From Asterochloris sp. CNOR1 (lineage: Eukaryota > Chlorophyta > Trebouxiophyceae > Trebouxiales > Trebouxiaceae): a stretch of 64,000 bases of DNA. Of the stretch, positions 110 through 47,300 are shown piece after piece; the stretch's first letter is position 1; each line of letters begins with the position of its first letter. Location of the stretch: assembly GCA_963969365.1 (NCBI GenBank), contig OZ017759.1, forward strand, positions 1,612,001 through 1,676,000, given 5' to 3'. A model generated the notes under the pieces. It did no database searches. It saw nothing but the letters and a program-made list of their open reading frames with translations, and was not told the DNA's origin. Both the position numbers and the translations under genes were made by a program.

Positions 110-3100
110 TACATTGATCGAGAGGACAAATTTGGCGCCCACAATTATGCCCCCATCCCGGTGGTGATCAAGCGCGCAGAGGGCGTCCATGTGTGGGATG
201 TGGACAACCGCAGATACTTTGACTTCCTCAGCGCCTACTCAGCTGTCAACCAGGGGCACAACCACCCTCGGGTGAGCACAAGCCAGGCACCCAGGCTGAG
301 CTTGGCCAGAGCAGCGGTAGCGGGTGTGACAGGCAGCATCAGCCTCTCTGTTGTCTACCTGGCTTTGTAGTCCCTGAGCTGTTGTGCGGCCCTCCCCAGC
401 TGACACCTCCGCTGGTCAGAGGCACAACCACCCTCTGATGAGAAGGTTGCTGGACAGGGCACTGCGCTGTTGCATTGTCATAGCGGCGAGGTGCATCTGG
501 CGGCAGTCCTATGAGCTCTGGCATGCAGAGGCACCATGCTAAGGTTCCATTTACTGGCCTGCGATCTTCTCGCTGCCATGTTTGGACGTGACTGCTTGCT
601 GCCTCCGCAAGTGGCCAGAGCTCAGGTGAACGAGGCGCACATCCTGTCTGTGGCCATCCTGTCAGCTGGTGCCTGCAGCCCGTTCACCTGCCGTTCCCCG
701 CCTCTGAGCTCTTGGAGGCAAGTGCTGCACATCTGGCCTTCACATGGCAAGTGCTGCTCATCTGGCCTTTACATGGCCCCTTTGAGACCGTGGGCCTGAC
801 AAGCGAGCACCGCTGCATAGTGTGGCAGGGGTTGTCCAAGTGCAGCCCAATCTCTGTAAAGTTCCCTCCAGGTCTCTGCCAAGGCTGCCAGCATGCACAG
901 TAAACCTAATCCATTTCCTGCAGATCACCAAAGCGCTGGTGGATCAGGTGCAGACCCTCGCCCTGACCAGCCGCGCCTTCTTCAACGACGTGCTGGGAGA
1001 GTACGAGGAGTACATCACCCGGCTGTTTGGCTATGACAAGGTGCTGCCCATGAACACAGGGGTGGAGGCTGGCGAGACCGCCTGCAAGCTGGCCAGGTGA
1101 GCTGGCACCTGTGCCGAGGGCCCCTGTCACACACGTGCACCTCTGCCAGCCCTGCAGGTGGGCTCCTGGGCTTGAGACACTGCCTGGAAGGCGGCAGAGG
1201 CTGCTTGGCTGTGAATAGATGCTGCCCATGAACACCAAGGTCAAGGCCGTGGGAGACCACCTGCAAGCCGGCCAGTTGAGCTGGCGTCCATTGTAGGGGG
1301 ACCCTGTCGTGTGCCCGCATCTCGGCCGGCCCTGTAAAAGGAGGCAGGCCCAGACAGTCCTGCCAAAAACAAGGTACTCCCAAGGGTAGCCTCAGCATGA
1401 CCTAGGGTCTGCCCTGCCCACTCCCCTGCTGTGCACCCTGCATCACCAGCATGTAGCTTCAGGGATTCTGGCTCTGTGTTTAGTCCATCTTAAGGTGGCC
1501 CCTGCCTGCAGGCGGTGGGGCTATGACGTCAAGGGTGTGCCCAAGAACGAGGCGGTCATTCTGTTTGCAGAGAACAACTTTTGGGGCAGGACCCTGGCAG
1601 CCATCTCTTCTTCCACAGGTGGGCTGCTGCTGGCTGCTGAATGGTACCTGGCCTGAAGTTGCATGCTTGCCCAGGCAGGACCCCTCTTGAGGGTTGGAAA
1701 GCCTCACGCTACTGGCTGCTCGGCTGGTGCATGAGAAGGCAGCTCTGATGTTGCAGCCTCCAGCCGGGGAGTCTGCCTCATGCTGCGTCTGTGAGGAGCA
1801 GCACGATGTGCACACCCTGCCTGGGTAGGGTGCACATCAGCACCCTGTGATGTGATGTGCAGCCCGGACACCTGTGACCGGTGCTGCAGCTTCAGCGAGC
1901 GGCTGTCGGGCTTCTGGCTCCCCCATGCGTGTACTTGAACTCAGACGCTGGACGCCTGGCAGCAGTGTTCACTGCCCTGCTACAGATCCAGAGAGTTTCG
2001 GGGGCTTTGGTCCATACATGCCAGGTTTTCAGAACATCCCCTACAACGACCTGGGGGCACTGGAGAAGGCCCTGCAGGAAAACTCCAACATTGTGGCCTT
2101 CATGGTGGAGCCCATTCAGGTGGGCTGACGGACAGGCTTTCAAGTGTCTGCAGATATCACACATCATGGGCAGCAGCACCTTGGCTGCGGGGCAAGGTAC
2201 ATGCTGGCATGGTGAACCCCAACCAGGTGGGCAATGAAACTGACATGAGCCTCAAGGTGCAGCCATAACAGCACCCTTGAGGCTGACATGCCATGAAAGG
2301 GCTCATCCCACATCTTAGAGCAGCGCCTGCTGCTGGTGGGAGTGTGCAGCTTGGTGCTGGCTGTTGGGCCCATACATGGCAAGTATGGGGGGGGGCCCTG
2401 TGTGCTGGGATGGCAGCAATCCCATCAAGGTTGCCTTGATGGTGCAGCCCAATTGGGTGGGCTGGTGGATGGAATGAGAGGTGCCTGCCACGATTGGCGC
2501 ACATCAAGGGCAGCAGCAGCAAGTCAAGGCCCACTTCAGACCGCAGCAGCTTGGCTGTGGCAAAGGCCAAAACACAGCAGGATTCGTGTTCCATGCGTCC
2601 TGGCGCTATGGGCCTTGCTCTCATGCCAGCTGTTGTCGTGGCCGAGCGGTGATCACATCCCTTGCCTACCTGCAGGGGGAGGCTGGGGTGGTGGTGCCTG
2701 ACGACGGGTACCTCAACGCAGCACATAAGCTGCTGAAGAAGCACAATGCCCTGCTCATAGCAGACGAGGTCCAGGTGGGTGTGTCTGGGTGAAGCTCGCT
2801 TCTGCTGGCATTCACTGCCTGCACAAGCACACTTTTCGTGACACTGTACCTTCAGCTGTGGCCACTAGACCCAAGCAAGCCGGACGGCCTGCAGTGTGGC
2901 ACCCTTGTAGCCCAGCACTGTGCATCTGTGGGCGGAATGGGGAAGGAGCGGGACAACAGGAGTATCTCATGGGCTCTTCATGCCTCACCTCTGCCTGTGC
3001 TGCACATCATGGCCTCCATGTGTGTACCCCGTGGGCGAGCCCCGGCATGCAGACGCAGATTTGGCGCCGCAGTAGGGATGCACACCTCACCTCCTGCTGC

Positions 3101-5646
3101 CTCTCTCTGCCTGCCGGCGGTGCTGCACCTCCAGCAACTGCAGCCATGAGCACAGCCCGTGCTGCAGCAGGCAGCTGGCGGTCCTGCTCCAAGCCGTGTC
3201 CCTGCCTGCCTGCATGCCTGAGGTGCCTTGTCCTTCCAGCTAGATCACTTTGGCCTGTGCCAGGGCGTGCCCGCCTCAACAGGTAATGCCTGCACTGCAG
3301 GTCGGCATGGGCCGCACAGGGCGCATGCTGTGCAGCGACTGGGACGGGGTGCACCCAGACATCCTGGTGCTCGGGAAGGCCCTGTCAGGGGGCATCTACC
3401 CTGTGTCAGCTGTCCTCGCAGATGATGAGGTGGGCTCTGCACCACGGGGACTGACTGAGGAGGATGGTGGTGGTGATACTTCTCTCAGGGGCTCCACCCT
3501 GGGTCAGCTGTGCTGGCCAATGACTACGTGGGCTGCTGCATGCCAGTTCGCTGGGCCCTGGCTGCTGGACTGTGGCAGTTGTATGTCACCCCTGGTGCCT
3601 GCATGAGGGGAGAGAGGCTGGTCTGCGCATTTCAACACTCTGCAGGGGCGGCACTGCTCGGCTTGTGCATTGAGGTCTGACGAAGCAGTGCACTGCCCAC
3701 TTGCAGTGGCTCTGACGGTTTGCAGGCAGCATCACAGCTGCTCAGCTTCTGGAGCATTCCCAACCAGCCTGCATCTCCATTCGCAGCGTGGGCAGACGGT
3801 CGGCCTCAATGCACTGCCTGCCCCCTGCCTTGAGTGGGCAGCCCCACAGGACCCCTGCTGCACTGCCTGCAGGTCATGCTCACCATCGGCCGTGGCCAGC
3901 ATGGCAGCACCTACGGCGGCAATCCTGTCGCTGCCAAGGTGGCTGTGGCAGCACTTCAGGTGGGCTGCATCTGCAACTGCACTACCTGTTGGCGGCAATG
4001 GACTTGAAGCCTGCAGCATTATGCAGCCGCGTGCCTTGAGACCGTTTGCTGGCACCATGTTTGCTCCATGGTAGGCCTGTAACTGAGGCATGCATATGCC
4101 CTCGCTGTCACATAGGGCAGCCTTCTGCAGCAGACATGACCATGACTGCTGGCAGCCTGTGTTGCAGGTGCTCATCGACGAGAGGCTGGCAGAGAACTCC
4201 GACAGGCTGGGCAAGCTCCTGCGCAGCGAGCTGCAGCGCATCCCCTCGGAGCGCATCACCACTGTGAGCCTCCAGAGTTGAAGCCTGCACTGCATGAGCC
4301 TGCATGGGGCGTTGTGTGGACCAGGCGGAGGGCACATGTTCCCTGAGGGAGCGCTTCACCACGAAGAGCAACTGAAGCTGGCGCCTGCATGCACAGGCCT
4401 GTCTCAGATTTCAAGGACCAGGCAGGAGGCAGAGCATGCCTCTTTGATTGCATGTAATGCTGTTCCTTCTATGCTGCGCCCGTGGAAGGTGCGCCTGCAT
4501 GCACAGCTGGTCACAACCTGTGGTGCTGGGACAGGAGTGTCAGGCCTTGCCATCACAGTGCTTGAAGGCTGGCCCCTGCTCGCAAACGCGTGTGACACAC
4601 CGCTTGGTGGGACATTATCACTACAAGGTTGTTCAAAGTTTCGAACAGAAACTGCTCACTCTACATCCTGCAATGACAAGAGTGATTGAGACCAGAAGGC
4701 CCATGGGTCAGGTATGGGAAGTGCTGTGCTGGATGCCATGGAAAACTTGTTCAGGGACCCAGTTGCTTGAAGGCTGTGTTGCTGCTGCAGTTGTGGGGCA
4801 GATGCCCGTTGAAAGTGGCACACTGCTCACTCTGCAACGCCTGAGGGCGCTCTGCAGATCTAATCTTGCCCTCTTCCCAAGTGTAGGGCAGGGGTATCCA
4901 GACTGCCTAGTCCTTTGCTCAGTGATGTTCACCTGCCTATGCTTGGCCGTCAGCAGGCGCACAAAGGCAGCTCCTGGAGGCTGCACCCTGCTCGTTTTGC
5001 ACAGTTGCATTGGCACCCCTCAACCTGACCAGAGAGGCAGGGCACTGCCACAGTACACATGCATGTCCTGCAGGTGCGTGGCAGGGGTCTCCTGGATGCC
5101 ATAGTGATCAAGGACGTGGAGGGTGTCTCAGCGTATGATGTCTGTATGAAGCTCAAGGAGGCAGGGCTGCTGGTGAGTGCTGCTGTGTCCTGCAGCCCTG
5201 AGTCATCAACCTCAGCATGTAAAGCAGGTGCACAGACGTGCTCAGCTACACATCCAGCTATGCCTGTTTGGAGAAGCACGACGCGCACAGCATCCTGGCA
5301 CTGCTGTATGGAAATGTCTCTGTCGCACATAGACCAGGTTGTGCCTTTGTCTGCCAGGCCTAGGCAGCAAGGTGCATGCATCGCTAACCCAACCCTTGGC
5401 AGCATGGCGTGCATGAGGCCTTGGGGGTGCTCGACCTCTGCTCATGCAGCCTGTGCCCATGTATTGGAGCATGGTCAACTGCTGGTGGTGCAGGCCAAGC
5501 CCACACATGGAGACATCATCCGGTTTGCTCCCCCTCTGGTGATGACTGAGGAGCAGATGCTGGAGTGCTGCGACATCATCAGGCGCACCATTTTGTCCTT
5601 TGATGCCTCTCACACAGCTGACAGCCAGCAGGCAGCCACTGCCTGA
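110..5646 (+). CDS. OAT: Ornithine delta-aminotransferase (5' end outside window)
   Basis: PLP enzyme that moves the delta-amino group of ornithine to 2-oxoglutarate, giving glutamate semialdehyde; it links arginine and proline metabolism and is usually mitochondrial. Ten in-frame exons: 110-271, 924-1096, 1512-1618, 1986-2119, 2676-2774, 3301-3429, 3873-3959, 4168-4263, 5074-5172, 5494-5646 (stop TGA). Family blocks seen in order are [64 protein letters not shown], the PLP-phosphate/ring region VVVPDDGYL...LLIADEVQ, the Schiff-base lysine in [22 protein letters not shown], and the C-terminal [15 protein letters not shown]. The first visible exon starts after a ctgcag acceptor, so the initiator and any targeting peptide lie left of the window. 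Introns 2, 4, 6 and 8 hold decayed copies of adjacent exon ends. Identification is near certain; the exon edges are inferred. Confidence 0.96.
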
Positions 5647-6152
5647 TCTGCTCCATGGATGGCAGAAGGCCAGCAAGCCTCAGCCTGTCTGACCTTTTAT
5701 CTGATGCGGTGCCCACAGTAGGCGGCCCAGCAGGTTGCTGCTGCATAGCAACCTGATGCTTTGCACACACCGGATGGCCAGCAGCAGCAGCAGTATGATT
5801 CACTGCTTCCAAGGCCCTGGACCTTTGCTGCACAGAGTCGCATTCTCTTTCCACCCCCTTCGCCCTGCATCTGCCCAGAACGCTAATTGCATCTCTCACA
5901 CCCTCAATTCTGGCTTGCCCTCTGCCACCACCTTAGAACACTGATGCTTACTTCTGAGCTAAACTTCAAAGAATGGTACACATACTGGTCGTGCAGCAAT
6001 GGCTGTCATGCTGAATACGTGAAGCAAGCTGGCAGGTGGACTGCCTGCATGTCAGCCAGAAAGGCTGTTAAAGATGGTGTTGTTGGGAGTGGCTACTGGG
6101 CGTTGTTGGAGGGCTGTCCTTTCTGTTCTGGAGGGCTGCACGGCTAACATCT
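5647..6152. other. Convergent intergenic region (3' flanks of OAT and CFAP299)
   Basis: About 500 bases between the OAT stop and the CFAP299 stop. It should hold both 3' untranslated regions. The open frames here (for example 5887-6147) show no family resemblance and no sensible splice context. I see no RNA gene or repeat. Confidence 0.6.
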
Positions 6153-8943
6153 TCAGCTGCGCCGCCTTGCAACATGGTCATAGATGACGATCTGCAGGCA
6201 GAGGCTTTGCTGTGACATGCACACATGGCCAGCTGGGACTCAATGCTTCAGGCCATAACAGGCACATCTGATCATCATCACGGTGATGGGCACTGCAGGC
6301 TATGAGCTCCCAGATGCACAGGGATCAGATCGCGTGGCATGCAAGCTCCAAGCATTGCGTTCATTGACTTCAGGCCCAGTCCCAACCCACCTGCAGGTAC
6401 TCGTCAGTGACAAGCTCCAAGCGCGTGGAATTGTCGCCAGGCTTTGCCCTGGGGTCCACATTGATGACCTTGCGATCGCGCTTGTTTTTGAACATGAGGC
6501 CATTGACATTCTCTGCAATGGTCTGCAGCAGCAGAAGGAGCTGGAGGTCATGCAAGCTCAGCCACACGAAGGGAAGGTGCTGCCTGCAGGCCCCATACCA
6601 GCTTGTGGCAGTCTCAAACTGCACCTGGAGCACAGAAAGGCGGTCTCCAGCAAATGGCAGGGTAATGAAGCTTCTGCAGAGGCTTCTGCAGTGCTCAGGG
6701 TTACCTGTGTCAGCGTAAAGTGGGAACCTCAAGCAGCAGCAAACCTTGCAGTCCCAACAAGCCCTAGATTGGCGTCAAAGTCATCGTCAATGTGCAGGCT
6801 ATGAAGAAACCTGCCAGCTATGTGGCCCTGACTGCACACCATCGCTTCCTTGCTGCCGACTGAAGCTTGTCAGCGCCCTGCAGAGCTCGCCTGGAAGTTG
6901 GGGCTGCCATTGAATGCGAGCACCTCACGGCATCAAGATTGGCAGTGAAGCATCATCGGGCAAACCCACTCGCGAGCTGGGCCCTGTCATGTGGATTTAA
7001 CAGATCTCACAACATCGAGGAAACACCCACCTGGAAGTTGGGGCTGGCATTGGAGGTGCTCATCTGAGTGTCCCAGTTGTAGTAGGACAGGTCGCTGGGG
7101 CGGGGCAGCAGGCGCCGCCGGTGGTCAAAGACAGCCTCCATCTGGTCCATCTTCAGCCTGCAGGCACACAGTCCCCATTGGATGGGCTTTCCTGATCTTG
7201 ACAGATTTCGACCTGCATCTGGGAAGCTCAAGCACCACATCCATTCCTGAGCCACAAACGCAGAACATGTGGAACTGAGCATCGCTGATGTGGCAAAGAA
7301 AGGACGATTAATTGCCACCCATGCCCACCTCACTGTGACAGCAGCAACTTGCAGTGACCACCCTGCGTTCTGTCTGTGTCCAGGGCTGGAGGGCAGTAAA
7401 AGTGTTAAGGAGCTTGCCTGTGGCCATAGTCAATGTAGCCAGAGATCTCCTGCCCCTTAGCATTCTTGTCTCGCACAAAGACAATGGTTGCCAGCTTCCC
7501 ATTCCGTACTGCCTCCTCCCGCTGCTGCAACGCCTGCAGGGCCGAGGCGGTCTTATCTCAAGTGCTTGCAAGGTACAATGCTGTCACAAAGCACCCTCTG
7601 CAGCAGCATCAACCCCCTGAACAGCCCAGGCCCAGCCCGTGCCACTGCACAACCCATGCGTGTTTGTATGGCGCCGACTGGAATGCAACACTCCCCTCCA
7701 GCAGGGAACGCTCAGCATAGTTCCTCTTTAGGCACTGCAGGGTAGTGACCTTCCACAAAGCCCATGCCCAGCTGCGTGTGGCGCAGACTCAATGCAATGC
7801 TCACCTCCAGCAGCGGGCAGTCGGCCTGCACCTGTGCTGCAGGCAACCCCTGGCTGGGGGTGGGCAGCAATGGGACCCTCTGGGCGCCTCGTCGGCAATG
7901 GGAGCAGGCCATCTGGCAGCAAGTCAGTCCCTAAACCCTACACAACCCATAAGCAGATGCCCACCTCAAGCAGTGAGGAGTCTGCATAGACTTTAGCCAT
8001 ACTGGCAGGCAGGCCTCCATGCAATATTTAGCTCAAGCAGGCCTCACACCACCCGAGATTGGCCAAACAGGCAGCAGAGAGTTGGTGTGCACCTTTTGCT
8101 GCATGTGTCCCACCACTGCTGGGCAGCGCACCAGGACTCTGTAACCCCGCCCTCGGCAAATGGAGCAGGCCATCTGTGAGTCAGTTGCAGTCTGTGGGTC
8201 ATACATCCCTACACAAACAGACGTCAGGTGCCTACCTCCAGCAAGGGCGAGTCTGCATAGCTCTTCCCTACGCTGGCGAGGCGCTTGCTCTTGCGGTTGA
8301 GGCGGGCGATTCGTAGGTCCTCCGCCTGCTTCTTGCGCTGCTCAAACTCCTCCCGTCTGCAGAAAGAGAAGCATTCATGCTTCGTGAGGGAGCCCGGCAG
8401 CTGCTCAGGTATGGTGGCGGCGCTGTAGCCAAGAAGCTGCAGCAATTTGGGACCTGATTCTACCTGCAGGTGCAGAGGCGCACAGCCATCACCCAAAGCC
8501 ATCACCCAAGGCATGCCAGAGTGTTGAATTTTGGCATACCTCGCCAGCGCAATGTGCTTTTTTGAGCTGCTGCAGTGGCTGTGAGGGTAAACTGAACTTC
8601 GAGAGCTCAGCCGTGTCCAGACAGGCCCTTTACCACGGCTGTGTTATAAAGCCAAAACCCTGTGACCATGCAGCCGCATACACCTGATGACCTCTCCATT
8701 GCCGTGATAGCCAAGCTCCACGAGCTGCCGGGCCAGAGACACGTCGCCCAAGTAAAACATGTCGGTTGCTGTGATCTGTTTGTCCAAGTATTCTTCATAT
8801 CTGCAACAATGCAGCATTTGTGGCTCATCAAAAGCTGGCAAGCAGCTTGCTGCAGCAATCAAGCCATTGATGTTGGCGCACGTCTCAAACTGGTCTGCAA
8901 TGGGGTCAACGCCAGAGCCCAGCAGCTCCAGGTCCTCATTCAT
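6153..8943 (-). CDS. CFAP299: Cilia- and flagella-associated protein CFAP299 (C4orf22 family)
   Basis: Small conserved protein found in ciliated eukaryotes; its exact molecular role is not settled. Seven exons on the minus strand: 8943-8882, 8800-8684, 8356-8236, 7533-7418, 7157-7031, 6522-6391, 6191-6153. They sum to 714 nt (237 aa plus stop), close to the roughly 233 aa of animal homologues. Conserved stretches include [120 protein letters not shown] and the C-terminal [11 protein letters not shown]. Start ATG at 8943 precedes the first conserved block by only about 20 residues, as in the family. Intron 4 uses a GC donor (CAG|gcaagc at 7418/7417) and is required by frame and homology. Intron 3 carries decayed copies of the exon 3 end. 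The start lies only about 200 bp from the TBCE stop on the same strand. Confidence 0.95.
7655..8283 (-). repeat. Decayed copies of CFAP299 exon 3 donor region inside intron 3
   Basis: The true exon 3 end with donor (8231-8283) is echoed, same orientation, at about 7960-8013, 7799-7844 and 7691-7742. Each copy keeps the core of donor, CTGGAG and the GACTCGCC-like block to a varying degree. Flanking blocks are copied as well: the stretch near 7890-7950 matches 8150-8222, and 7660-7690 matches 7766-7797. Confidence 0.8.
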
Positions 8944-9147
8944 GTTAACTCGGTGTGTGCAAGAAGCTTTGCCGTGATGCAGAACATTTGCTGACCTAAC
9001 TCGAGGGCCCTCAAGTCTCCCGCCAAAGCAGACCCCCGCAAGCCTTGAGCCTGGAGGGAGTTAGTGATTCTTTCAATTTCAAAGGGGAAGCTCTATGGTA
9101 TGAGAGGGGGTGCCCTAGAAGGGTGCAGGCCTGGCGCCGTCATCAGG

Positions 9148-12100: not shown

Positions 12101-13825
12101 TGGCCTGCCTTCAGGGGGCCTCTCGCCATGCTTAACTTGGCGCTAAACATGTTCAGCAAGCATCTGCCTGTGAACAGCACACAGCCGACTGCTGCAAATG
12201 CACGGTGGCGCCACCTGGCTGTCCTCCAGTTCACCAGCAACCCTGGTCAAGTATGCAGCACCAAGCTTGCCTGTGCCCACATCACGCAGCAGCAGATGCT
12301 GAGCACCAGCAATTCCCAGCGGCCTTTATGACCCATCAGCAGTGGCTGCTAGTCTCCAATAACCCAAGGCATGGATACAGGGACCAGCCTGACCCGTGCC
12401 CACGTCACAGAGCAGCAGCTGAGCCGGCGTCTGCAGTCAGCTGCAGGACAAGACCAGGCCCACTCGTGCCCACATGACACAACACCAGCTGCCCCCAGAC
12501 GCATCCGTGCCCATGTCACCAGCGTCTGCAGCGCAGCCAGGTGCAGGCAAAGTACAGCACTGTGCCCATATGTGCTCACATGATGCAGCACCAGCATGCC
12601 CCAGAGGCGTTGATGCCCACATCGCCAGCGGCTGCAGTGCTTCAGGACCTTCAAGCAGACGTGCAGCTCTACGCTCACCTGCGCCCATGTCACACTGCTT
12701 GCGCAGCCAGCTGCAGGTCCAGAAGCTGGCGGCCCGGTGCCCACATGATCCTGCAGCTGCCCTGGGCACTCCCACCTAGCATCTGCAGCACCAGGCTCAC
12801 CTGCGCCCAAGTGACGCAGCAGCTGCTCAGCACCAGCGTCTGCAGTGCGGCCAGCTGCAGAGGCAGCAGCTCCTGTGGCGCCTGCGGCATGGTCAGCCGG
12901 CTGGAGCTCAGATCCAGCGTCTGCAGGCCAGGCAGCTCCGGAGCCAGCTGCTGCACGGCCTGCCAGCTGGACAGGAGGCTGCCTGTCAGATCCAGGGAGG
13001 TCAGGGCTGGCACCAGAGGGGCCAGCTCCCCCTGCAGCAGCACCACATGGGGTGCACTCGAGGGAAAGACAAATGTGCAGTGGCGCCATGCTCTGCAGGT
13101 CCGACAGCTGACATGCAAATTGCCTGTCTGATTCACTTCCTCACAGCCGCACACTCTCAGAGAGTGCTGACACCAGACAGAAGGCCCCGGCAATGGTTGG
13201 CCATGCAGGATGCCTGCTGTCCACCCTGCCTATTGATGTGAAGGAGAGGGCACTGTCACATGCTGGGCACCACTTACCGTGCTTGACACTGCAGCATTGG
13301 GCAGGCTGGCCGCCTCAAGTCGAGCCAAATTCCCCTGCCGCTGCTGCACCTGGCTCAGTCCCACAAATTGCACAGCAGGCTGCCTGCGCCCGGCCACCTC
13401 TGTGAACAGGCCCTCACTGCCTGTGTCACAGTACCTGCCAAAGCAGCAGCCAGGTTTCGCTCAGGCTTGAAATGGCTGCTACCACATTGCTTGTCTTGAT
13501 CATCTCACATCAGAACCACGGCAAACTCTGCCTGTGAGCAGTTTGTGACACTAGAGACCCACCGCTGGCGTATTGCATCTGCCAGGCTTTGTCCCCTGCA
13601 GGCTGCTGGCAGTTTGCTGGCCCGTACAAAAGTCCCTGCCCCCTTGGCAAATTGGCAATGGAAGTACTTGTGTCCGTTGGCAGTGCCATCATGCTTGCCG
13701 CGACCAGGATCATCCCATTCCAGGCCAATCCACGGTCCCTCTTGGTCAGCAATGAGGCCAACATAACGCACGGTGGCCCTCTGGCCATCGATGATTATTC
13801 GGTCATTCACTTGGCAAGAGAACAT
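9148..13825 (-). CDS. TBCE: Tubulin-specific chaperone / folding cofactor E
   Basis: Chaperone that with cofactors B, C, D and Arl2 handles alpha-tubulin during heterodimer assembly and disassembly; cytosolic. Ten exons on the minus strand: 13825-13563, 13434-13278, 13031-12801, 12089-11961, 11686-11557, 11327-11173, 10997-10898, 10423-10205, 9511-9354, 9186-9148. The total is 1581 nt (526 aa), matching the human protein (527 aa). Domains: N-terminal CAP-Gly (residues about 5-75, with GKHDGTANGHKYF and FVRASKL), leucine-rich repeats (about 140-340, ending in GNPILEGQNANCRYE and SLAALNGSAV), and a C-terminal ubiquitin-like domain (about 460-526, SLTVGKLKVVVERLFKVKQA). The start is the ATG just before the CAP-Gly fold. 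The intron after exon 7 has a GC donor (CAG|gcaagc, 10898/10897). The intron before exon 5 ends in tag instead of cag. The long intron 3 holds an array of exon 3-end copies. Confidence 0.96.
12240..12860 (-). repeat. Array of decayed exon 3-end copies in TBCE intron 3
   Basis: The end of LRR exon 3 with its donor (about 12790-12859) recurs in the same orientation at about 12259-12320, 12382-12446, 12447-12540, 12560-12650 and 12676-12745. Shared core on the plus strand: cctg(c/t)gcccacatcac followed by gcagcagctg and a gcgtctgcag block. Units run about 65-120 bases and have drifted strongly. They explain the long but meaningless open frames on both strands here. Confidence 0.8.
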
Positions 13826-27224: not shown

Positions 27225-27384
27225 GCCTGCAGTGATGTGGCCTGCAAGGCAGACCAGGCGGGAACCCCAGGAGGGTGTGCTGTGTGCAGGACGGTGGGGC
27301 CTAAGTGCTTTATGTTGGTTGTATTACTACGTCTTGCTACATTTAGATTCCCACCCGGCGGGTGGCTGAGAGCTGTGGCTCAGG

Positions 27385-30918: not shown

Positions 30919-33900
30919 GCTCTGACTCAGCAGTTCAGGAAGGAGACTATTCCCTGGCTCCAAGGCCTGGTGCAGCCCTTCACGCAGGGACCTCCACCCC
31001 CACTGACTAACACAGTCAGCCCCGAAGCTCTGGCAGATGCTGACAGCAAGTTTGTCACAGTAGACGGCGTCAGGCTGCACTACAAGGAGAGGGGGCCAGC
31101 AAGCCCTGGCACTCCCGCAGTGCTGCTGCTGCATGGCCTCAATGGCAGCACCTTTAGCTGGTGAGGCCTTGCAGTGCTGTCGCTTCACTACCTCACTGGC
31201 AGCACTTGGCACTCCTGCAGTGCTGCTGTTGCATGTACTGAATGGCAGCCCCTCTAAAGGCTGATGCTGCAGAGCTGCTGGCAGGGGTTTCCTGTACATC
31301 TCCCGTCGTCTTTGCAGTGCTTGCTCCAGCTTCCTATCTGGAGACGTATGCCTGATAGGATGACTCTCGACACTGTGACCACTGCAGGCAACGGGAACTG
31401 CTGTGAATGCACGCTGCAGCTGCATTGTCAGCAGCAACCCTGTACCATCGCAGACTGCTCCCGGCTGGTTGAGCCCGACCCAGCATGCCCCTGCAGGTCC
31501 AGCAAACAACAAGGCTTCGGGCAGCAGTGAGCAATGCCTCCATCACTGGGCTGCCTCTCACTCACCCTGGCCACATGCAGGCGGGACGTCATGGAACCCC
31601 TCTCCCATGTCCAGGCGGGTGAGGGGGGCTGCCGAGTCATTGCCTTTGACCGCCCCCCATATGGCCTCAGCCAGCGACCCCTCACCTGGGAGGGTGGGGA
31701 TGAGGGCAGCCCGTACACCAATAAGGCAAGCCTGCAGACGTTGCGATGCCTCCCAGGGTGCACATGTGACTTGTGGGGCCAAGCGTCAGCTGCACGGGAC
31801 AGGCGCCTGTAGGGCCTGCTGCTTGTCCTGCAGCTGCAGCTGCAGTAAGCAAAGAGCCAGGGGTTGCATGTAGCATGCAGGCGCCCTGCAACTGTGTCTG
31901 CCCTCTGGCAGACTTTAGGCAGGCAGTCATGCCTGCTCACAGAGAGTGCTGCCCCTGCCCATTTGCAGGAGTGCCACCTGGCTGAAACCAGCAGGCGCCC
32001 TGTAGTCATGCCTGGTGCTCAACTAAACCCTTGCAGGGCGTTTTGCTCGCTTGAGATGGATCATCAAGCTCACCTGCCTGTGCTTGCTGCAGGGGGTTGC
32101 CTGCCCAGCAGATACAGACTGGATTTTCCAGAGCCAGAGTTGCCATGCCCTTGCCTGCTGCAGGGGGGTGCCCGCCTGGCAGAGGGTCTGTGCCGCGCTC
32201 TGGGCATCTCAAAGGCAGTGCTGGTGGGCCACTCAGCCGGGGCACTGACTGCAATGGAGGTCTTCAAGAGGTGCAAAGCTGTACTGTCTAAGCAGATGAG
32301 GGAGAGTTGCCGTGCCTCAGGTCCTCGCACAGAGCGGCCCTGCATGATGTTTCGGGGAATTGATCTGAGGGTCAGTTGGCAGATGAGGGACACCTGCTGT
32401 GCATCATGGCAGAGAGAGGCCAGGCATGCTGTACCTCAAGTGTCGTGCCCAGAGCATCCTCGAGGATGTCAGAGCGCTGCATCAGGAAGGGCATGGCTGC
32501 CACAGCAGTGTCCTGTTTGCAGTTCAGCAAGCACTTGGCTCGGGCACTTCAGGAGCCAAGCTCATAGTGCCTCACTGCCTATTGTCGCCAATTTGCAAGG
32601 CCAACAGCTGCGGGCCTGCACTGCAGCAGACCGCCGCTGTGAGTGCAGTGCAGCACAGGGTCGGTTCTGAGCTTTGGTGTGCTGTTCTGCAGGAATCCTC
32701 AGCTGGTGGCAGGGCTGGTCTTTGTGGCTCCTGCCCTGCCTGCAAAGGCAGACAGTCAGGGGGAGAGCTTCATTTGGAAGGCATCTCTGGGGCAGCAGCT
32801 GCAGAGGCTGTATTTTAGAGCCTTATTGCAAAATGACCAGGCAGGTAGGCCAGCCCAACACAACCTGACTTGAGCGCTTCATAGGCGTCCTCCGCGAGCT
32901 GTTGGCCAGACTCAGTCAATTCTGCTGAAATCAGTCCTGCTGAGCATACCCGAGCCCTGCACACCAGCCTGCCATTTGAAGCTCCACCAGTGACAGTGTG
33001 CTGCTCAGAGAAAAGTACAGTAAAAGTGTTGCAGGATGCCTTGGAGCCTCACATCGTCAAGTTTCTTGGGGTTGCAGTCAATTGCTGCTGCAGGGCTGAA
33101 CTATGTAAGAGCTAGGATCCAAGAGCGGAGCGATCAGGTGCGAAATGGCAACCTTGGAATTCTTGGGGAGGGAGCAGAGGTGCCTCAGGTCAGCGCCCCC
33201 CCCCACCCCACCACCCCCCCTCTCCCGCCCACTACCCCGGGGCCACCCAATTGAGCTGCCTTAAAGCCTTCTGCAAGCTCATGCAGCAGGCCCACCTGCC
33301 TTCTCATTGAGCCTCCTCAGGTCAGCCCTGCATCTCAGGCTGATGCGTGAGCTCTAGAATACATCCAAAGCTGCTCTACGCTTCTACATGCGTTGGTCCG
33401 TGTCTGGACGTCTCTCTCGCCTGGCTGTGGCAGGTCTGTAATCCTGATGAGGCTGTGGCTGTGCTTTGCAGGCCTTGATCGACGGCTATCTGAAACCCAT
33501 GCGAGCTCATGACTGGGACCGAGGCAGCCTTCTCAGCTACCGAGCTTTCAGCTTCTCCTCTGATATGAATTACAGCCAGGTCACTCAGCCAGTGCTATTT
33601 ATCACGGGTGAGCCTGGCAGCAGAGGCAGCACACTGGCATGTTCAAGTGTGCATTCTGGCTGGCTAAGGTGCCTGGAAAGCACTGCAGCCTGACTTGAAC
33701 AGGGGTGCCCGTCATACTGACTGTGCCTTACGAGCACGACTGGCAAAGGGAGCCTCAGTCCCCCCTGCTGCATGTTTAATTGAATACCATATGGGATGTC
33801 TGCTGCAGGGGAGCGGGATCGGCAGCTGACAGAGGGCGCCAAGAAGGTGAGGCAGGCGTTGTTGACTTCACTGTGTGAGCGGATTGCTATGCACCACTGC

Positions 33901-34788: not shown

Positions 34789-37700
34789 TCACTGCATGAC
34801 GACGCCCGCCCGGTCCAGGGGCGCGAATATGAGGGGCTTGTGCGCCTCCAGAGTGGCATGGGAGCGCCGCCGGTTCATGCGGTACTGGTCCACGAGCTCC
34901 AGCTCAGGCACATTGGCTAGGTGAATGACACGGACGTCTATATAGTCGTCCAACTCCTCCTTCAGCTCATCCTCGTGCAGGGCTGAGGGAAGGTGCACCA
35001 CAGGCGCCTTGCGGGGCTTGAGGGCTGGAGGGGCGACAGCTGCACTGCCTCCCGACGTGGAGAGCGCTGCTGACGCGTTGGCGCCGGCTGCTGCTGCAAC
35101 CTCATCAAACCCTGGCTCATCGGCAGCCAGGCTCCTGCCCAGCGCTTTTGCCGCGAGCTCCTGCAAGAGGGTCTTACTGTGTCAAACAAAGGAGGACGAT
35201 GGCCAAGTCCCAACTGAGGAGGTCTCTTCAGACATTGACTTGCTGCTGCCAGGCTGCCGCCGAGCGCCTTGGCCGCAAACCCTAGCAAGGATTTGGAGCA
35301 TGCTTTGTGCTCATTCCCGCTGGCAAGCTGGTGTTGCAGAACGCCACTGAGGCCTTGACATACCCCTGGCTCCCAGCTGTCAGCTGCTACAGAGGAAGAA
35401 TGGGGGACTGGTTGCATGCAAAGGCTCCTGTGCCAAGCTCTCGCAAAGGGCTGTGGATATCCCTGCAGACAGTGGTCTGATGACACTGCAGGACCCTGGC
35501 TGCGCTTTGGTCATGCCTACTCCGTGATGTCTGCTCAGGGCAGGCCAGAGGGGCAGGTCCAACAAGCGGTGCACAGGTACCTGTAGGCAAGGTTGGCTTT
35601 GCTCCTGGGGCGCAAAGAATGCAAGCAGCAGCCCCACGGCCCACAGACCAGGCGTCCCCTCATGCGGCACCTGGGTGACACATGAAGTGTTGCCCGACGC
35701 AGCTTGCTGATAAAGTGAGCCCCAGGCAGTAGCCCCAAGGGGGCAGTCACCTGCAGACGGGGCTGGCTGCGCTCCCCCGGGAGCGGGGCCTCCTCCCGAA
35801 TGCGCTTGCGCCCCGTGGGGGTGGTGATGTTGCTGGTGGTCTCTGGCGCAGCGTCTCCAGCTGCCGTCCTGCCCCGGCTCCCGCCTGCCCCAAAGGCTGC
35901 TGCGATGGACTTGCCGGTGCTGATCAGCAGGCGGTTGGCACGCTTCTCGCCGCCAGTGGCGGTCTGCTGCCCCAGAGGGGCCCGTGGCGGCTGGTCAAAG
36001 GCAACGGTCAACACATCGTCCTGCAGGCAAAGCAGGCATGACTGAGAGGCAGTGGCAGGAGTTTGAAAGGCAAGCCTGCTGCAGCTGGTCAGCGGCCAAG
36101 GCACAGGTCCTGGCTGCAGGCGCACTCAGCAAGAGGCAGTCATGGGGAGAGGCACCTGCGGCAGCTGGTCGAAGGCCAGCGTCTGCACAGCTCCTGCAGG
36201 GAGACTGACTGAATAGCACTGCAGTGGTACCAGTCGGCAGGTGCAGCTCAAGGCCCCAAATCCTGAAAGCAGCACAATGCTGCAGCAGCAACTTGACACC
36301 ACACTGTGAGAAGCCAGGCAGGGCCTGCCAGTGCACCAAGGCTTGCACAGTGCAGGCCCTGTGGCAGCAAGCATGCTGTCCCTGACGTCAGAGGCACCCC
36401 ACTGTTCCCAGCAAGGTACTCTCAGCAGTCACACTGCAGGCTTGTGGGCAAGAGCTTGAAAGTGCCGTGCTTGCCTTGACTTCTGGGGGAACCCTAGGGT
36501 TCTCCATGAAGGTGCTCTCCCGGTACCAGATGGCGGGCCCATGCTTCTCATCCATGTCTGTCAGAGACAAGATGTTGAGCATGTGGTCCTGGGGGCAGAT
36601 GAAGGGCAGCTGCTGGGCATCAGCTCCAGGGAATCTGCACAGCCACGAAGACTGGTGAGAGTGGGTAAAGCATGGGTGTCATGGTTGAGCCGTAGGAGCT
36701 CAGCCCCCCAAAAAGCCTGCACAGCAAATGTGCATGTGCTCAGCTGCTGCAGAGAGGCTGAGAGGAGACAAAGAGCTGCTGCTGGCTTTCAGCTCCAGCA
36801 CAGCGTGCAAACAGAGAACGTGACTTCAGCTGTCGTTTCCAGGGAGTCTGCACAAACTGAGCACTTCAGAAGAATGACAGGAGACATTGTCAGCTGACTT
36901 GGACATCTGCCGGGCTCCTGTTCCTGGGGTGCTGCAGATTGTCAGTGTACAGTGCGCACTTGCCGTGCACCATCCTTTTGCTGGCCAAAGGCAGCCCCAC
37001 AATGTCATGGGGGACCGGACACCACCCTGGCAAATCCTCCAGGGCATAGTGGTTAGGAGATCTGCTGCAGTATCACTGCATTGCAACACGCCATCTGCAT
37101 ACTTGCACTTGACGTCCTCCTTATCCTCCAGTGCGTACATCCACAGCTCGTCGCAGAAGCACAGGAACTTGGGCAGGATGATGATGCGCTTCAGGGCCAC
37201 TGCTGTTGCAGCTGCCTTCCAGAACTGCAGCAGCAGCAGGGAGAGAGCGATCAGGGTGCATCTTTGTGCTGCCCTGGGCTCATAGTCTGGGACCTGATGC
37301 ATGCAGTCAACTTGGTTGCCATCAGACACCATGCAGCCTCACTTGCCAGCTCAAAAGGGGCAGAAGGCTGCTGTGGTGCGCTGCGTGAGGGGCCTCCCTG
37401 CAAGCTGTGTCGCTACCACATATTGCTAAAGCAGGCCAGCTGCTGACGGCTAACATCCGTCAGGGACCTCTGACCCCAGGGTTCCTGGCCCTCTCAGGCA
37501 TCAGACATCAGGCATGACCCCGCACAGTCCTGGTGGAGCTGCATGTCCTATTCTCAAGGGCCTGCGTCCAAGCCTTGCCCATGATTCTCAGACACATACA
37601 TGCTGCAGCTACAGCCCCAGCTACTGCATGCACACCCAGTGTCAGGCGTCCCACTGCTTGCTGTCTAGGGGCTGCATGACACCGCAGATGCCTTGTGCTG

Positions 37701-40700
37701 GACCCCTCACCTGGTCCTGCTGCAGCTGCAGCGCCTGAAGGTGCATGCCCACGCGCTGCCGTGCATCCCACTGCTCCCAGTCTGGGGGCTCCTCGGGGTA
37801 CTTCATGTCGAAGGATAGGTAGAACCCCTTGTTGTAGTAGTCCTGGTGGTCATAAGACCACAGCCCAGTCTCGCGGAATCGGTGGCGCTTGTAGCCACCA
37901 GCCACGTAGTTGGCATGAGCCACATACAGGTCGTAGGGCAGATCCTGCAGCAAGCAACATATGTCAGTGAGCTGCGACCTGGGTCACATGCAGGTCATAG
38001 GGGCAGGTCCTGCAGCAGGCAATGGGTGTCGGTGGGCTGCAACTGTGTGGCAGCATGGGATGCACACATGAGAGATGTCATGCAGCATGACAAGAGAAAA
38101 TGTGCCAGGTTGGGCATCATCTCCAGAGCCCTTGATAGTGCTGCATCTACACATTATAGGCTGCTCAGCCGCTGGGTGTGGTGGGGAGTTGCATGGCAGG
38201 GGAGGTTGTTTGCACGGTGCAGCCCAGCACAAGTGAGCTCCCTGGTGGTGTGAGGCTTTGTGGAATCTTGAGGACCTGCTGGCTGGCTTGTGATGTGAAG
38301 CTCTCAACATGAGGGGTTGAGGATGCTGCAGGGCGGCCCACCTCACATAGGAACAATATCACGAGCACCATGAAGAAGCCCAGTGGGCAAACCAGCAATG
38401 GGTGGTCCCAGTCCTGGGCTCAGCATTCAAGTGCCAGAGCAGCACATAGCACACAGGCAAGATCAACGTTGCCTGGACGATGGCAGTGCTAACCACTGCA
38501 CACAAGCAGGACTGCCGCAATGCACAGGCAGTGGGGCTCCGGCAGTATAGAGCCTTGACTACCCACAGCAGGGCTGCTCACCTCATACAAGCGCTGAGTG
38601 AAGAAGGCATGGCCATTGGGAAAGCCAGCGATGGGCAGCAACCCGACAGAGATTGTGTCATGGAAGCCCCAGATGACCCGGGGGATGGTCTCGTGAGGGT
38701 GGATGATGTTGAATGTTCTGCAGCCAGGCAGGGTGCCAGGATGAGGACTTGTGCCCAGTACTTGCAGGCCACCAGAGCACGGGCAGGTGACCTGCTCATG
38801 GCCTGCAGCAGACATGCGCAAGAGCAGCTTGCTGCCATCCAGGCCTGGCACCCTGAGACTGACCTGTCATGGTCTGGTGTGTGGTCCCAGAAGCTGCCAT
38901 GGTTGAGGAACATGCCCAGCCGCAGCAGGTGGTTGAACTGCCCCTGGTCCCACACATCTGGGACCCCCTCATCCAGGGCAGTCTGCCAGGCCTCGAGGAA
39001 GATTGTCATGTTGGGGGAATACCTGAGGCGCATCAGGCCTGCAGGGCAAAGGGAGGAGAGTCATGCTAGGCATGGCAGCCGACATGTCACATGACCATGA
39101 CTAGAAGCGGTGGCGCTCAAAGAACATGAAGGCTGCAGCCGGGGGTTGTTCTGGGCAGGAGGACACCAACACAGGGCCTGCGCTGCTGAGCCAACAGGGA
39201 AGACTCTGCCCTTCTAAATCACATTGTGGAGGGCAAGTAACTCCATCGTGGACCTTGCTGATGATGACATCAGCTATGCTGAGGGCCTTGGGCACTGCCT
39301 GGCCTGTTGCCCTGCATTGAGGTCCCAGCAGGCTCATGCAACAAGCAGCTGCTCATGTGATCACCACATGTCCAAGCCAGCCATGTTGCAGCCCTGGGGC
39401 GCCTCGTCACATGCTAATTGTTTGCAGCCCAGCCAGATTGTGCTTGGCAAAGCTCAGTCACATGCTGTCATGCAGCCCCACTCCAGTGCATCCATAATCC
39501 TTACCAATGTTCATGTCAGCCATGCCGCAGGCCTGGGGCGCCTCCAGCCCATCATCACTGTTGGTGGGCCTGCGAACATCTGTGGTGGCCAGGATGTCCA
39601 CCTCAGGGTACCGTTCAAAGTACTCGAGAGGGTTTTTGAACCACACTGCAGCCAGATTGACGGGCAGTCAGCAATGCGCAAAGCAGGGGTTCCTCAACCA
39701 GCGCAAAGCGCTCAGGCAATGGGCTTGGGTGTCTACCAGTGCCCTTGCGGGGCAGCGCCTGACACTGGGCAGGTGGCATGCTACCGTCTGGGGCTGCACC
39801 TCACTGAAGCTCAACAGGGCAGCAGGCCTGCTGCAAGGCTGGTCTCATTCCACATCAGACAGCACTGGGCATGGCCTCACAACAAGCAGGTGGCAGGCTG
39901 CAGAGCATGCCTGGACCCCACAAACCGGCAAGGCAGGGTCTTGGAACCAAGCAGGCAACATGCTGAGGGGCTTGCCTGTGTCCACACCTGAGAGACCAGA
40001 ACAGAGACGACTCCAGGCAGGTGGCATGCGCGATGAGGCTTGGCTGCAGCCAGCACCTGCCCAGCATGGCAGAGCCTGGACCAAGCAGGAAACAAGGCTC
40101 ACCTGTGTCCACATCAGAGAGCACCAGGTCGACGCCGTACGAGTTGATCTGGCGCGCCAGGGGCACCTTGTGCTGCCCCAGAAGCAGGAAGCCCGCCGAC
40201 AGGAACATGAGGTCCCCTGCACCACAGCGATGAGATGCCCACTGTGACTGGCCGGGGGAGCAGCCTGTTTGGTCGAGGCGCACCAGAGATGGTCTGCCCA
40301 ACACTGGTGCGATGCGTTGTGTTTCCCCAGAAACCTTAGCCCCTGTTGGGCCAGGTTGAGCACCAAAGGAGGATGGCGTCATGCACCCAAGTGGCAGAAC
40401 CCACAGGCCTGCACACTAGACAGACACTCACATGCAGGGAGCCTCTTTAAAGTCATCGCACATATCCTGCATTTCTTTGTGAAAGTGAGTTACTCCACAT
40501 CCTGCTTTAGAATCCCCACAGGCTTGCCTGCTCCCGGAGATCAGTCCAAGCCCTACACATGTGCTCCTGGAAGAAGAGGCCTTGACGCTAGGGTGTATAA
40601 TGACACCCCTTGGCTCTCCTGCAAGGACCTCCTCCCCATCCTTCAATGCCAGCAGTTGCAGCTTGACAGAAACAAACCCCTCAGCAAACCTGCCACCCTT

Positions 40701-42886: not shown

Positions 42887-44369
42887 CTACACAGCAACAG
42901 TTGATGCGGGTCAATCAGCTGCCATGTACATGAATGCAGAGCTGAAACTGATAGCCAGTGCTGGGAGGTCCCAGACAGGCATCTGCACACTCAGTCACAG
43001 AAATGTGTTGTTTGCAGACTGGACAGGCAATGCTGGTGGGAGCACCACCTGTCAATCAGATCCCAGCCAGGCACCAGCCCTGGGCATAGCAGAGCACCCG
43101 TGGAATGTTGCTGGCAGCCATTCCCAAACCCCGCATGGCGGGCTGAGCCTGTGGTGCTGCTGACTGCATGCTGGCAACAGCTTCCAGGCACAGTGAGATT
43201 TTGCGCTTGAGGTGCTGTGCCCACAATGTAGACAGCCTGTCAGCTCAGCTTCAGATGTGAGGCCGCATGCATTGACGGCCTCTGCAGGGCCTGCATGGAC
43301 CCCTGACCGTTGGGCCCCCCAAAACAGGCTGGCTAGCAATGCGCTACAGAGATCAACTGCCAACAGAGCTGTGGGCAGAGCTCAAGATCTGCTCTCAAGC
43401 TGCCCCGATCTGAATCCATGCAAGAGTGGCCTGCCATTCGAGAACCCCAGGTTATTGGCTGCTGGCCAGGACAGGCTGCCTACAGCCAGTACAGCGGCAG
43501 ACAGCATTCTCACCCTCCTTTGCACTTCACTGGGCATGCATGGACCGCTCCCAGATCTGCGGAAAAGCCCAACCTTAGCTGATGGGCCACAGCGGCTCAC
43601 CATGCCACTTGCGTTGATTGGGAGAGCTGACGCCCTCAGTTCCAGCGGGTCCTGAGTCGCCACTGCTGTGCCCATGTACATCTCCCCGTGGCCCCTCAGA
43701 CCAGCCAGGCCTTGGCCGTGGTGCCGCCAGACTTGCTCAGTCTGGGCCCCACACAGACCCCTCCAGTGCTCTGCTGCTCTCTGGGGTTGATGACCCACAC
43801 TGGCCTCAAGGACAGGCGCCTGCGCTCGCAGCGCAGTGCCTGCTGCGCAACAACGAAGGCCTGCCTGCTGCAAGGTGGTCTTGCAGCCTGCGAAAGGCTC
43901 AGGCGGGCTGTGGCCGCACTGTGAATGGCTTAGGGGGTCTCCTCAGGCCTAAAAGCTCTGGTTCCTGTGCAGGCACGTTGTCTGTGTGGCCTGCAGCGTC
44001 AGAAGGGGACCATGCACACCAGGAATGCAACAGCATAGGTCTGCAGAACAGCACACTGCAGGAGCCCTCAGGTCCAAACATCTGGGCTGATGGGATCATT
44101 CCTGATGCCAGGGAGTCAGCTGATCACAAGCTGGCAGCCGGAAGCAGCGTCCAACCGTACCTGAATTGCGTAGCACAGAGAGGCAGTCTTCAGGCAGCGA
44201 GACGGACAGGTGATGGAGCAAAGGTGGGGCAGAGGACGACAAAGCAGGTAGTTACTCAGATGATTTAGAATCTAGGTCACTAACTGACCCTAGTCAAGCA
44301 GAGATTACCTGTTTACTGTCTGGCCAGATCAGGCGCTTTCTGGTGACATGTAGGCTGTTGGTGCAGCTC
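42887..44369. other. Divergent intergenic region between GT77 and the PHT4-type transporter
   Basis: About 1.5 kb that should hold two promoters and the missing GT77 first exon. A 216-codon open frame at 43618-44268 (+) and overlapping minus frames show no recognisable domain. Codon content is Ser/Gly/Ala-rich, as is common for random frames in this GC-rich DNA, so I do not call a gene. Confidence 0.5.
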
Positions 44370-47300
44370 ATGCTCAAGAGCAGCAGCCATGAGCTTCTGC
44401 TCGACAGGCGAAGGTCTCTGCCCGCCCTCAAGGTGCCCTATCGCAACAGCAGGAGGAGAATGCTGCCGGCTCTGCAAGTCCGCCACCAAATTGTGCTGGC
44501 ATGCTTCCTGGCCACCTTCACAGCCTATGTGGAGCGCGTGGGGTTCTCCATTGCATACACAGCAATGGCAAAGGAAGCACAGGTACGCATCAGCTGCGGC
44601 GCCATCAGTGACTTGCAGAGCGATGGCGCTCCTGGCATGATCATTCAGTAGCAGTATGCCGTCCTTGGCCCAGAGCATGCTCCGGCAGCTGCCTTGCATT
44701 GACCAAGACATACTTGCACAGATTCAGGTGTATAGTTCGTGATCCAGGTGGACGAGGCAACTAAGGGAACAGTGCTTTCCGCCTTCTACTGGGGCTATGG
44801 CATTTCACAGGTGGGCACCCTGCTGCCTGAGAGGCACCATGCACAGCCAGAAGATGCAGTGCATCTGTGCTCCAGGCAGGACTTGCTTGACACCAACAGG
44901 CCGGTTGGAGCAGGCTGTGCTGGCTGGCCAGTCTACCTCTGGTGTGCATCTGTTACATGGCTATCTGCCAGCTTGCCGAAGCTTTTCCTGGCCGCTGAAC
45001 TGCGCATCTGGGAGGCAGACTTCACACAGCAGCCATGGCCTTGGTGTGCACATGCCCAGCTCTCAGCGACTGCCCTTCTACTGCCTCGACAGCCCATCAG
45101 CAGCATGCTGATGAGGCCTCTGCCCAGTGTCCAGCTGCAGATCTGCAATTGCTGCGCTGGCTGCAGATGTCTGGCACCTGTGCAGCCACCCAGTGCTGAT
45201 GACACCCATTGCCCTGCGCCACGCCTCGTGTCCATGACTGCTTGCTGTCGCCTGCAGATCCCTGGGGGCTCTGCAGCCCAGCGCTATGGCGGCCGCCTGA
45301 TGCTGATGGTGTCCTTTGCCCTCTGGTCCACTGCTTCCCTGCTCACGCCTGGGTCCGCCCGCAACACAGCCGCCATTGCATGCGCGCGAGTCCTGGTTGG
45401 AGTCGCGCAGGGGTTCCTGATACCTTCTGTGCACACAGTGCTGTCTCAGGTGAGCGACTAGCCTGCCATTGTGCAAGACACTGGTATGCGCAATTGCTGA
45501 TTGGGTCGGGGGGTCTCTGTGTACCCTCTGTGTGCACCGTGCTGTCTCAGCTTGGCTGCTGGACACAGACATGCATCAAGCTGGTCACATCTCCTGCGCA
45601 CCTGCTGCGTCGCAAGCACGCACCTGTTCCTTTTGGTAGACTGCTCAGGACGACTTGGCTAGGCATTGGCACATAGGGTGGTGCCCAGAGGCAAGCTTCA
45701 TCTAACCGTGCCCACTGCCTGCACATGCTGCCTTGGGGGCTTGCCACTGTTGAAAAGGGAACCCCTGCCATTGCTCGCTACTGCCACACACACAGCAATG
45801 CCCTGCTGGCCCCACAAAGGGTGGTCACCCTGCCTTTCAATGCTGCTCAACCCTAAACCCTGGACCCCTAAACCCACGGCCACATCCAAGGTGGCAAGCC
45901 CCTGCGAATGGCTTGCTGCTGTCAGTCTGGCCCAGAGGGATGGCCACATTGTGATGGCACCCTGCCTCTCAATGACGGAGTGCACTCAACAGCAAGTGGC
46001 CCACATGCGCGTTGCACCATGCCCGTCATGCTGCCCCGCCTGGCAGATGGTGGGCAGCTCCATACCAGCTCTTTTGAATGCTTGTGCGTGTCACAATCCT
46101 GACGTGTCCTGGAGGTTTGGTGAGAACCACCCTGCAAGCAGGGTGCTGCTGAGCTGTGTGTAGGGACACACTGCTGGCACACACATGCTGAGCGAATTGC
46201 AGCTGCCATGGGCGCCACCAGTCAGCGCCCATGTCAGGGCGCTTGGCGCCATGGCCTAACCCATGCTGTCCACCCCGACCACCGCATTGAAATGCAGTCT
46301 ACATCGTGTGCTGCAGTGGATCCCACCCCACGAGCGAGCCAAGGCTGTCTCCCTGTCCACGTCAGGCATGTACCTGGGCTCAGCAGGCGCCATGCTGGTG
46401 TTGCCAAGCGTGGCAGCTTGGAGAGGGGCGCCCTCCCTGCTGCGCCTGGTTGGCTGCCTGGGCCTGCTGTGGCTCCTGCTGTGGAGCCTTGTGGGCAGGG
46501 AGGTGCCCCACAGGTGCAGGCACTGGCTGCCAGGTGCCTGCTTTGTGCGGTGGCTCCTGCGGTGGAAGCCTTGTGGGCATAATGTGGCCCGCAACTCCAG
46601 GCACTGCTGCCTGCCTGTTGCTGTGTGCATTAGCTCCTGCAGGGAAGGCTCCTGCTGTGGGGTGTTGTGGACAGGGACGTGCCCCATTAGGTTAGGAGGT
46701 AGGCACTGGCTGCCTGTCTGCTCCTTTGTACTGCAGTGGAGGTTTGTTGGCGGGGATGCCCCATAGCTTCATGCACTGGCCGCCAGTTGGCCTGCTGCAG
46801 AGGCTTGCAGGCAGCGATGCGCCCCAGAGGTGCAGACAAGATGGCGCCCTGTTTGCTGCTATGAGGGTCTGTGCAAGCATAACGTGCCGCACAGGCGCAC
46901 GTGCTTGCTGCCTGTCTGCTGTGCTTCTGATGCTGCTGGCACAGCTGCTGACTGGTGGCCCTGCCTATCTCGAGACCCGGCCATATCCCCTGTGATGCTA
47001 GATGGAGCTCCGGCCTGGGGGTGCTAGGATGTCACTGGCCTGCCTGCAGGGAGAGCATTATTCCCCTGGCAACCAACCACCAGAAGCAGAAGGGCTGCAC
47101 GCCTGCAACCCCCTGGGCTAGACTGCTGTCCTCACCAGCAGTCTGGGCCATCGTCATCAATAACTTCACCTTCCACTATGCTTTCTATGTGGTCATGAAC
47201 TGGCTGCCCACTTACTTTGACAGAGTAAGTACAGCTAGGCAAGCCCAGCGCGGCTCCTGGGTAGCTGTAATGCCTATTGTCGGCGCCTTGCTTGTCGTCC

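Follow-up and report, generated by a model that had tools for sequence, protein, structure and literature searches.

In a 64,000-nucleotide stretch of the green alga Asterochloris sp. CNOR1 (contig OZ017759.1, positions 1,612,001 to 1,676,000; hereafter the window), introns of OAT, CFAP299, TBCE, a DDHD lipase, CGL160, a hydrolase, a GT77-type gene and a transporter had been read as containing decayed copies of their own exon-intron junctions. Do introns of this genome grow by duplicating the ends of the exons beside them? Intron length is commonly ascribed to transposons or to unspecific insertion and deletion. We found that about 1 in 15 sampled introns (41/627) holds a decayed copy of the neighbouring exon's end. 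The copies are decayed local duplicates, not introner elements, and in OAT and CGL160 they are not conserved exons.

The genome comprises 56.4 Mb in 21 contigs. The window is 64 kb of contig C14, and it was compared with 100 kb of C1, 100 kb of C5 and 50 kb of C8, so that the sample covered 314 kb from four contigs and 627 predicted introns. Introns were kept if they measured 60-2000 bases and had no weak flanking exon, which removed 10/548 in the window, C1 and C5 blocks and 3/92 in the C8 block. Of 1254 exon ends, 50 with fewer than 30 usable bases were also dropped, leaving 1204. The match of each exon end to its own intron was compared with its matches to 1000 windows of the same length drawn from the block's other introns, and the antisense intron and 3-mer-preserving shuffles of the same intron served as second and third controls. 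The own intron beat all 1000 windows for 64/1204 ends, whereas 1.2 were expected and the antisense intron gave 6, so the match to the own intron is stronger than to unrelated introns. Against the shuffles, z exceeded 5 for 46 ends in sense and for 1 in antisense orientation. Both the other-intron and the shuffle control were passed by 45 ends in 41 introns (17 ends in the window, 5 in C1, 16 in C5 and 7 in C8). By the other-intron test, the introns hit were 23/132 in the window, 6/206 in C1, 18/198 in C5 and 10/88 in C8. Exon-end copies are several-fold rarer in the C1 block (L002-L011) than in the window, the C5 block (L012-L021) and the C8 block (L022-L026). When z>4 and p<=0.002 were required, 22/67 gene models contained at least one intron copy of an adjoining exon end (window 7/13, C1 3/30, C5 9/15, C8 3/9). 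Each of the eight genes named above has at least one copied end at z>4, one model of the window joining CGL160 and the hydrolase. The copies are real, but the sequence-only reading had placed them in most genes, and the wider sample does not bear this out.

The geometry of the copies is that of internal tandem duplication, namely local, direct and head-to-tail. Self-comparison of the window gave 20 direct pairs and 1 inverted pair less than 1 kb apart and none farther; the C1 block gave 11 near direct pairs and 1 far pair, and the C5 block 28 and 3. The exon alignment reached to within 6 bases of the junction in 34/45 copies as compared with 34/231 chance alignments, as expected of tandem units that span the junction, and 17/45 copied ends had two or more matching stretches. 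With a tiled self-aligner, 224 pairs were obtained at score>=50 against 23.2 in locally shuffled sequence, 131 against 5.5 at score>=60, and 90 against 0.5 at score>=70. Among arrays shifted by 40-300 bases, the median of the smallest shift was 103 (5-95% range, 50-195), close to the tandem units of about 57-180 bases described earlier, and some shifts were shorter, from about 20 bases upwards. A minimum shift of ~100 bases was considered as a nucleosome-scale signature and rejected as an artefact of blastn self-hits, since those shorter shifts emerged with a banded aligner. The copies and arrays in the window are as follows.

1021-1154, + strand: OAT, parent sequence, comprising exon end, donor and start of the intron 1097-1511
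1199-1334, + strand: OAT, intronic decayed copy of 1021-1154
2391-2518, + strand: OAT, decayed copy of exon end and donor 2053-2178
3465-3540, + strand: OAT, decayed copy of exon end and donor 3365-3441
7810-8010, - strand: CFAP299, copy of 8071-8282, which comprises the end of exon 8236-8356, the donor and the intron start
12253-13027, - strand: TBCE, multi-copy array around exon 12801-13031 and introns
18447-18612, + strand: DDHD lipase, decayed copy of 18190-18354, which holds exon 18224-18304 and its two junctions
19930-19989, + strand: DDHD lipase, acceptor-side decayed copy of the exon start at 20092-20149 (80%)
28622-29111, + strand: CGL160, array with three copies of acceptor and exon start (near 28759, 28851 and 28939)
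29216-29358, + strand: CGL160, copy of acceptor and exon start 29320-29464
31201-31277, + strand: hydrolase, decayed copy of exon end and donor 31102-31179, 78%
35224-35289, - strand: GT77-type gene, acceptor-side copy of part of an exon (35101-35167)
37601-37673, - strand: GT77-type gene, decayed copy, with three in-frame stops, of the exon end at 37718-37790
39363-39449, - strand: GT77-type gene, decayed copy of the exon end at 39503-39591
39751-39999, - strand: GT77-type gene, array within an intron, a copy of 39868-40127, which extends into exon 40103-40216
45488-45550, + strand: MFS transporter, decayed copy of exon end 45384-45449
46349-46946, + strand: MFS transporter, array with several copies of exon end 46317-46513 and donor

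The clearest case is the OAT copy at 1199-1334, which is 75% identical to its parent over 136 columns and carries a frameshift, one in-frame stop and a donor changed from GT to TT. In the DDHD lipase copy at 18447-18612, both splice-site copies are lost. The last of the three acceptor copies in the first CGL160 array opens the conserved exon. The description of CGL160 as nearly exact is true of a core of about 40 bases (35/40), but the array pairs overall are just 64-67% identical. Part of the TBCE array, which lies among LRR-coding exons, may be protein-level repetition, and the small exon predicted at 46737-46829 inside the transporter array is probably spurious. Several other repeats were seen in the window. 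A 29-base tandem repeat in an OAT intron (717-777; 2.1 copies, 93% matches) is among the few young duplications, and a 90-base tandem repeat of 2 copies lies at 55478-55653 in a long Pro/Ala/Ser-rich predicted exon. A near-perfect, hairpin-like inverted repeat occupies 56775-56821 within a predicted intron, and a transporter intron contains two CCCTAAACCC words at 45851-45875, which we take to resemble a telomere repeat.

Gene models came from a custom gene finder that takes splice sites into account and was trained on its own output in the window, C1 and C5 blocks. Training converged on the donor CAG/GTGAGC and the acceptor TGCAG/G (slash, junction; T, G and C at 94-97%), and the finder produced 13 models in the window and 67 across the four blocks (13, 30, 15 and 9). 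Because these are self-trained predictions, they include the merged CGL160 and hydrolase model, a split CFAP299 and some doubtful small exons. All 9 window proteins submitted to Pfam, among which the DDHD model was not included, scored above the cutoff of some family. They comprised OAT, TBCE, CFAP299/DUF4464 as two pieces, the GT77-type gene (Nucleotid_trans), CGL160 and hydrolase (the merged model), the MFS transporter, a TPR protein and a polyketide-cyclase-like protein. The OAT match covered 387 residues (7e-114), and among the best 120 protein matches listed for OAT, identity was 81% to one relative and 79% to Trebouxia sp. C0010 and [Myrmecia] bisecta. An Rfam scan of the window gave no match at gathering scores.

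We then compared the copies with their parents. Copied donors retained GT in 23/40 cases and copied acceptors retained AG in 22/37, so that copied splice sites are often destroyed, as had been claimed, but their decay proceeds at about the neutral rate expected for 72-75% identity. Selective destruction of copied splice sites was rejected on account of this near-neutral retention. Identity between copy and parent was 74.9% at exon positions 1 and 2, 72.1% at position 3 and 71.8% in intron columns (p=0.037, positions 1 and 2 versus 3), and the exon part was better matched than the intron part in 33/58 pairs (p=0.024). The direction of this contrast fits one constrained and one free copy. Hypermutation was rejected as a source of the divergence; transitions made up 41% of 2115 intron-intron mismatches, showing no strong bias.

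Introns with a copy were longer (median 466, n=57) than those without (median 221, n=549). Arrays covered 5-7% of bases in introns shorter than 400 and 10-13% in introns of at least 400, and the Spearman correlation of intron length with array density was 0.200, as compared with 0.109 ± 0.039 when the annotation was rotated against the arrays (8/500 rotations as high). Long introns therefore carry more duplicated sequence per base. We also compared the identities of arrays with a simulated constant-rate two-copy duplication process, leaving out arrays that were at least 90% exon and shifts outside 40-300. Only 3/66 arrays were at least 80% identical, against 25-30 in the simulation, and a lower threshold showed the same trend (6/98 against 36-37% expected). 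Loss of young identical repeats by contraction cannot produce such an old-skewed spectrum, because survivors of any age were young first. Four pairs were at least 90% identical, all intronic with shifts of 22-71 bases, and one junction-spanning pair reached 86% over 35 columns. Most of this growth thus looks old, a past wave being the simplest reading of a simple simulation, and the earlier view of the process as recurrent is doubtful.

We consider it probable that these copies come from untargeted short tandem duplications, most of them old, which were tolerated where use of the outer splice site kept the messenger RNA (mRNA) intact. Untargeted duplications, mostly of 50-200-base units, would have hit gene bodies, mainly in the past. 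Most of them would include a splice junction, exons and introns being about unit-sized (predicted medians of ~133 and ~225 bases, respectively), and a duplication spanning a junction would leave a copy of the exon end inside the intron. The mRNA would stay unchanged while the outer site, that is, the first donor or the last acceptor, is used. The gene models suggest such use, and in them one copy stays functional, as the sequence-only reading had supposed. The inner copy, splice site included, would then decay as presumably neutral sequence, and the intron would end up one unit longer per duplication. Slippage or end-joining repair may be the molecular source of the duplications.

The strongest alternative is that duplication starts at or near splice junctions, for instance at breaks linked to transcription or splicing, in which case introns would grow specifically by copying their own ends. 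The placement of arrays was assessed by rotating the annotation against them 500 times. At score>=50, the 121 arrays comprised 88 exon+intron, 20 intron-only, 12 exon-only and 1 intergenic, with rotation expectations of 81.4 ± 4.3, 22.8 ± 3.9, 8.6 ± 2.7 and 3.9 ± 1.8, respectively. The exon+intron counts were also near random at score>=60 (62 of 86 arrays against 59.0 ± 3.9) and at score>=70 (45 of 62 against 43.6 ± 3.1), since the duplicated unit is about the length of an exon or an intron, and arrays lying wholly in introns are numerous. On the other hand, intron-only arrays were somewhat few at score>=60 (10 against 15.6 ± 3.4), which leans towards direction to junctions. So does an excess of intron/junction pairs (56 against 41.0 ± 6.9 on three blocks), pairs within an array not being independent, and few arrays touch predicted intergenic sequence. 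With untranslated regions counted as intergenic, exon+intergenic arrays numbered 0 against 4.3 ± 1.8, and intergenic arrays were likewise scarce.

Five observations weigh against untargeted duplication with neutral decay as we have put it. Among younger arrays (identity >=72%), 33 were exon+intron against 25.3 ± 3.1, with 6/500 rotations as high. Exon-only arrays were not depleted overall (12 against 8.6, and 13 against 5.5 ± 2.1 at score>=60). Copy frequency is strongly uneven between blocks, from 23/132 introns in the window to 6/206 in C1. The contrast between exon positions is smaller than expected if one copy were frozen and the other free, perhaps owing to the score-based choice of alignments, and a constant process leaves the scarcity of young arrays unexplained. 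As to the first two, exon-only arrays are coding repeats, with a shift divisible by three in 10/12, and among younger arrays they were depleted (2 against 6.7 ± 2.3). The junction excess of younger arrays accompanies this exon-only deficit, the pattern that selection would give, and it falls to 33/49 exon+intron arrays against ~30 expected when only exon+intron and intron-only arrays are counted. Junction geometry together with selection against frame-breaking exon events is nearly enough to explain array placement. There is little sign of a duplication process aimed at splice junctions, and we regard one as unlikely. Local duplication has lengthened introns, as had been proposed, leaving local tandem copies that are denser in longer introns, but the part of that proposal in which the process acts on junctions was not supported by the near-random placement of arrays.

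It could also be that the weaker matches reflect cryptic simplicity, in which many tiny slippage events cluster motifs and no whole unit is duplicated. The genome is rich in CTG/GCA-like words, many pairs are merely 60-65% identical, and local shuffles still yielded a tenth or so of the real pairs at score>=50 (23.2 of 224). However, the 46 ends at z>5 stood out from shuffles that preserve 3-mers, with only 1 in antisense; the excess at score>=70 was 90 pairs against 0.5; and the alignments are collinear and reach the junction. We judge this explanation improbable, somewhat more so than direction to junctions.

That the copies are true alternative or mutually exclusive exons is very hard to reconcile with their state. 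Neither frameshift nor stop was present within the aligned part in 12/45 copies, and AG is retained in the CGL160 copies, but the other 33/45 are broken. In addition, no second copy was found in the OAT proteins of 5 relatives (chosen from 120 listed) or in the CGL160 proteins of 8 relatives (chosen from 97 hits), so that conservation as alternative exons, which would have spoken against decayed duplicates, was not seen in these genes. Introner-like or other mobile elements are the least credible source, for although the copies are intronic and in sense orientation, genome-wide searches that skip very common words matched the OAT intron and the transporter and TBCE arrays only to themselves (plus, for OAT, the neighbouring exon), and only 4 matches were found between the four blocks (two exon-exon, one intron-exon, one mostly intron-intron), in keeping with the earlier distinction of these copies from introners.

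Untargeted duplication filtered by splicing might leave a trace in which end of the intron is copied. Donor-side copies outnumbered acceptor-side copies by 31 to 14 at z>5 (p=0.016), 20 to 4 at z>7 and 37 to 25 at z>3, and in score-chosen tandem pairs the ratios were 30:26, 26:20, 24:17, 22:14 and 16:8 at rising cutoffs. This donor-side excess depends on the criterion, several cutoffs having been tried, and is suggestive only. Commitment to the first donor would tolerate a duplicated donor, whereas a duplicated acceptor would be used too early. A bolder reading, which we put forward tentatively and think rather doubtful, is that the copies form a genome-wide fossil record of splicing polarity filtering mutations, and that an old wave of short tandem duplication, almost silent today, set intron lengths in this algal lineage by way of that filter; the donor-side excess would follow from it. 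In any case, 41/627 sampled introns keep part of their own growth record, which is readable since the parent exon adjoins, and both the rate at which duplicated junctions are tolerated and the commitment to the first versus the nearest donor can be tested in a single genome.

Intronic minisatellites and other tandem repeats consist of head-to-tail units of tens to hundreds of bases. The copies described here share this arrangement and size, but most consist of just two or a few units that have diverged strongly, and many contain exon sequence; Tandem Repeats Finder gave only 9 rows in the window. Like introner elements, as characterized in PMC9860276, they supply new intron sequence at many genes. 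Tandem duplication of exon pieces is presented as an accepted route of intron gain in PMC3443670 and PMC2891723. In the Rogers model, tandem duplication of an AGGT-bearing exon piece gives rise to an intron, and for this PMC3443670 cites Hellsten 2011 and Gao & Lynch 2009. Gain of this type, so described, and the events in this alga are alike in being local tandem duplications inside genes. The register that such gain predicts, in which donor context equals acceptor context at a shift of one intron length, was seen at >=36/80 columns in 0/546 introns against 1.7 expected, and intron creation in junction register was therefore rejected. In the potato RdRp gene, a tandem duplication crossing an intron-exon boundary made a new intron, according to PMC4974935. 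As in that account, the tandem unit here spans a splice junction and splice signals are inherited from the parent junction. Searches of open-access literature listed no account of genome-wide intron growth through decayed junction copies, which is weak evidence of absence. Whereas the potato duplication made a new intron, in this alga existing introns are lengthened and the copies have decayed, and it is this lengthening through decayed junction copies, affecting several percent of the introns sampled, that sets the present case apart from the known ones.

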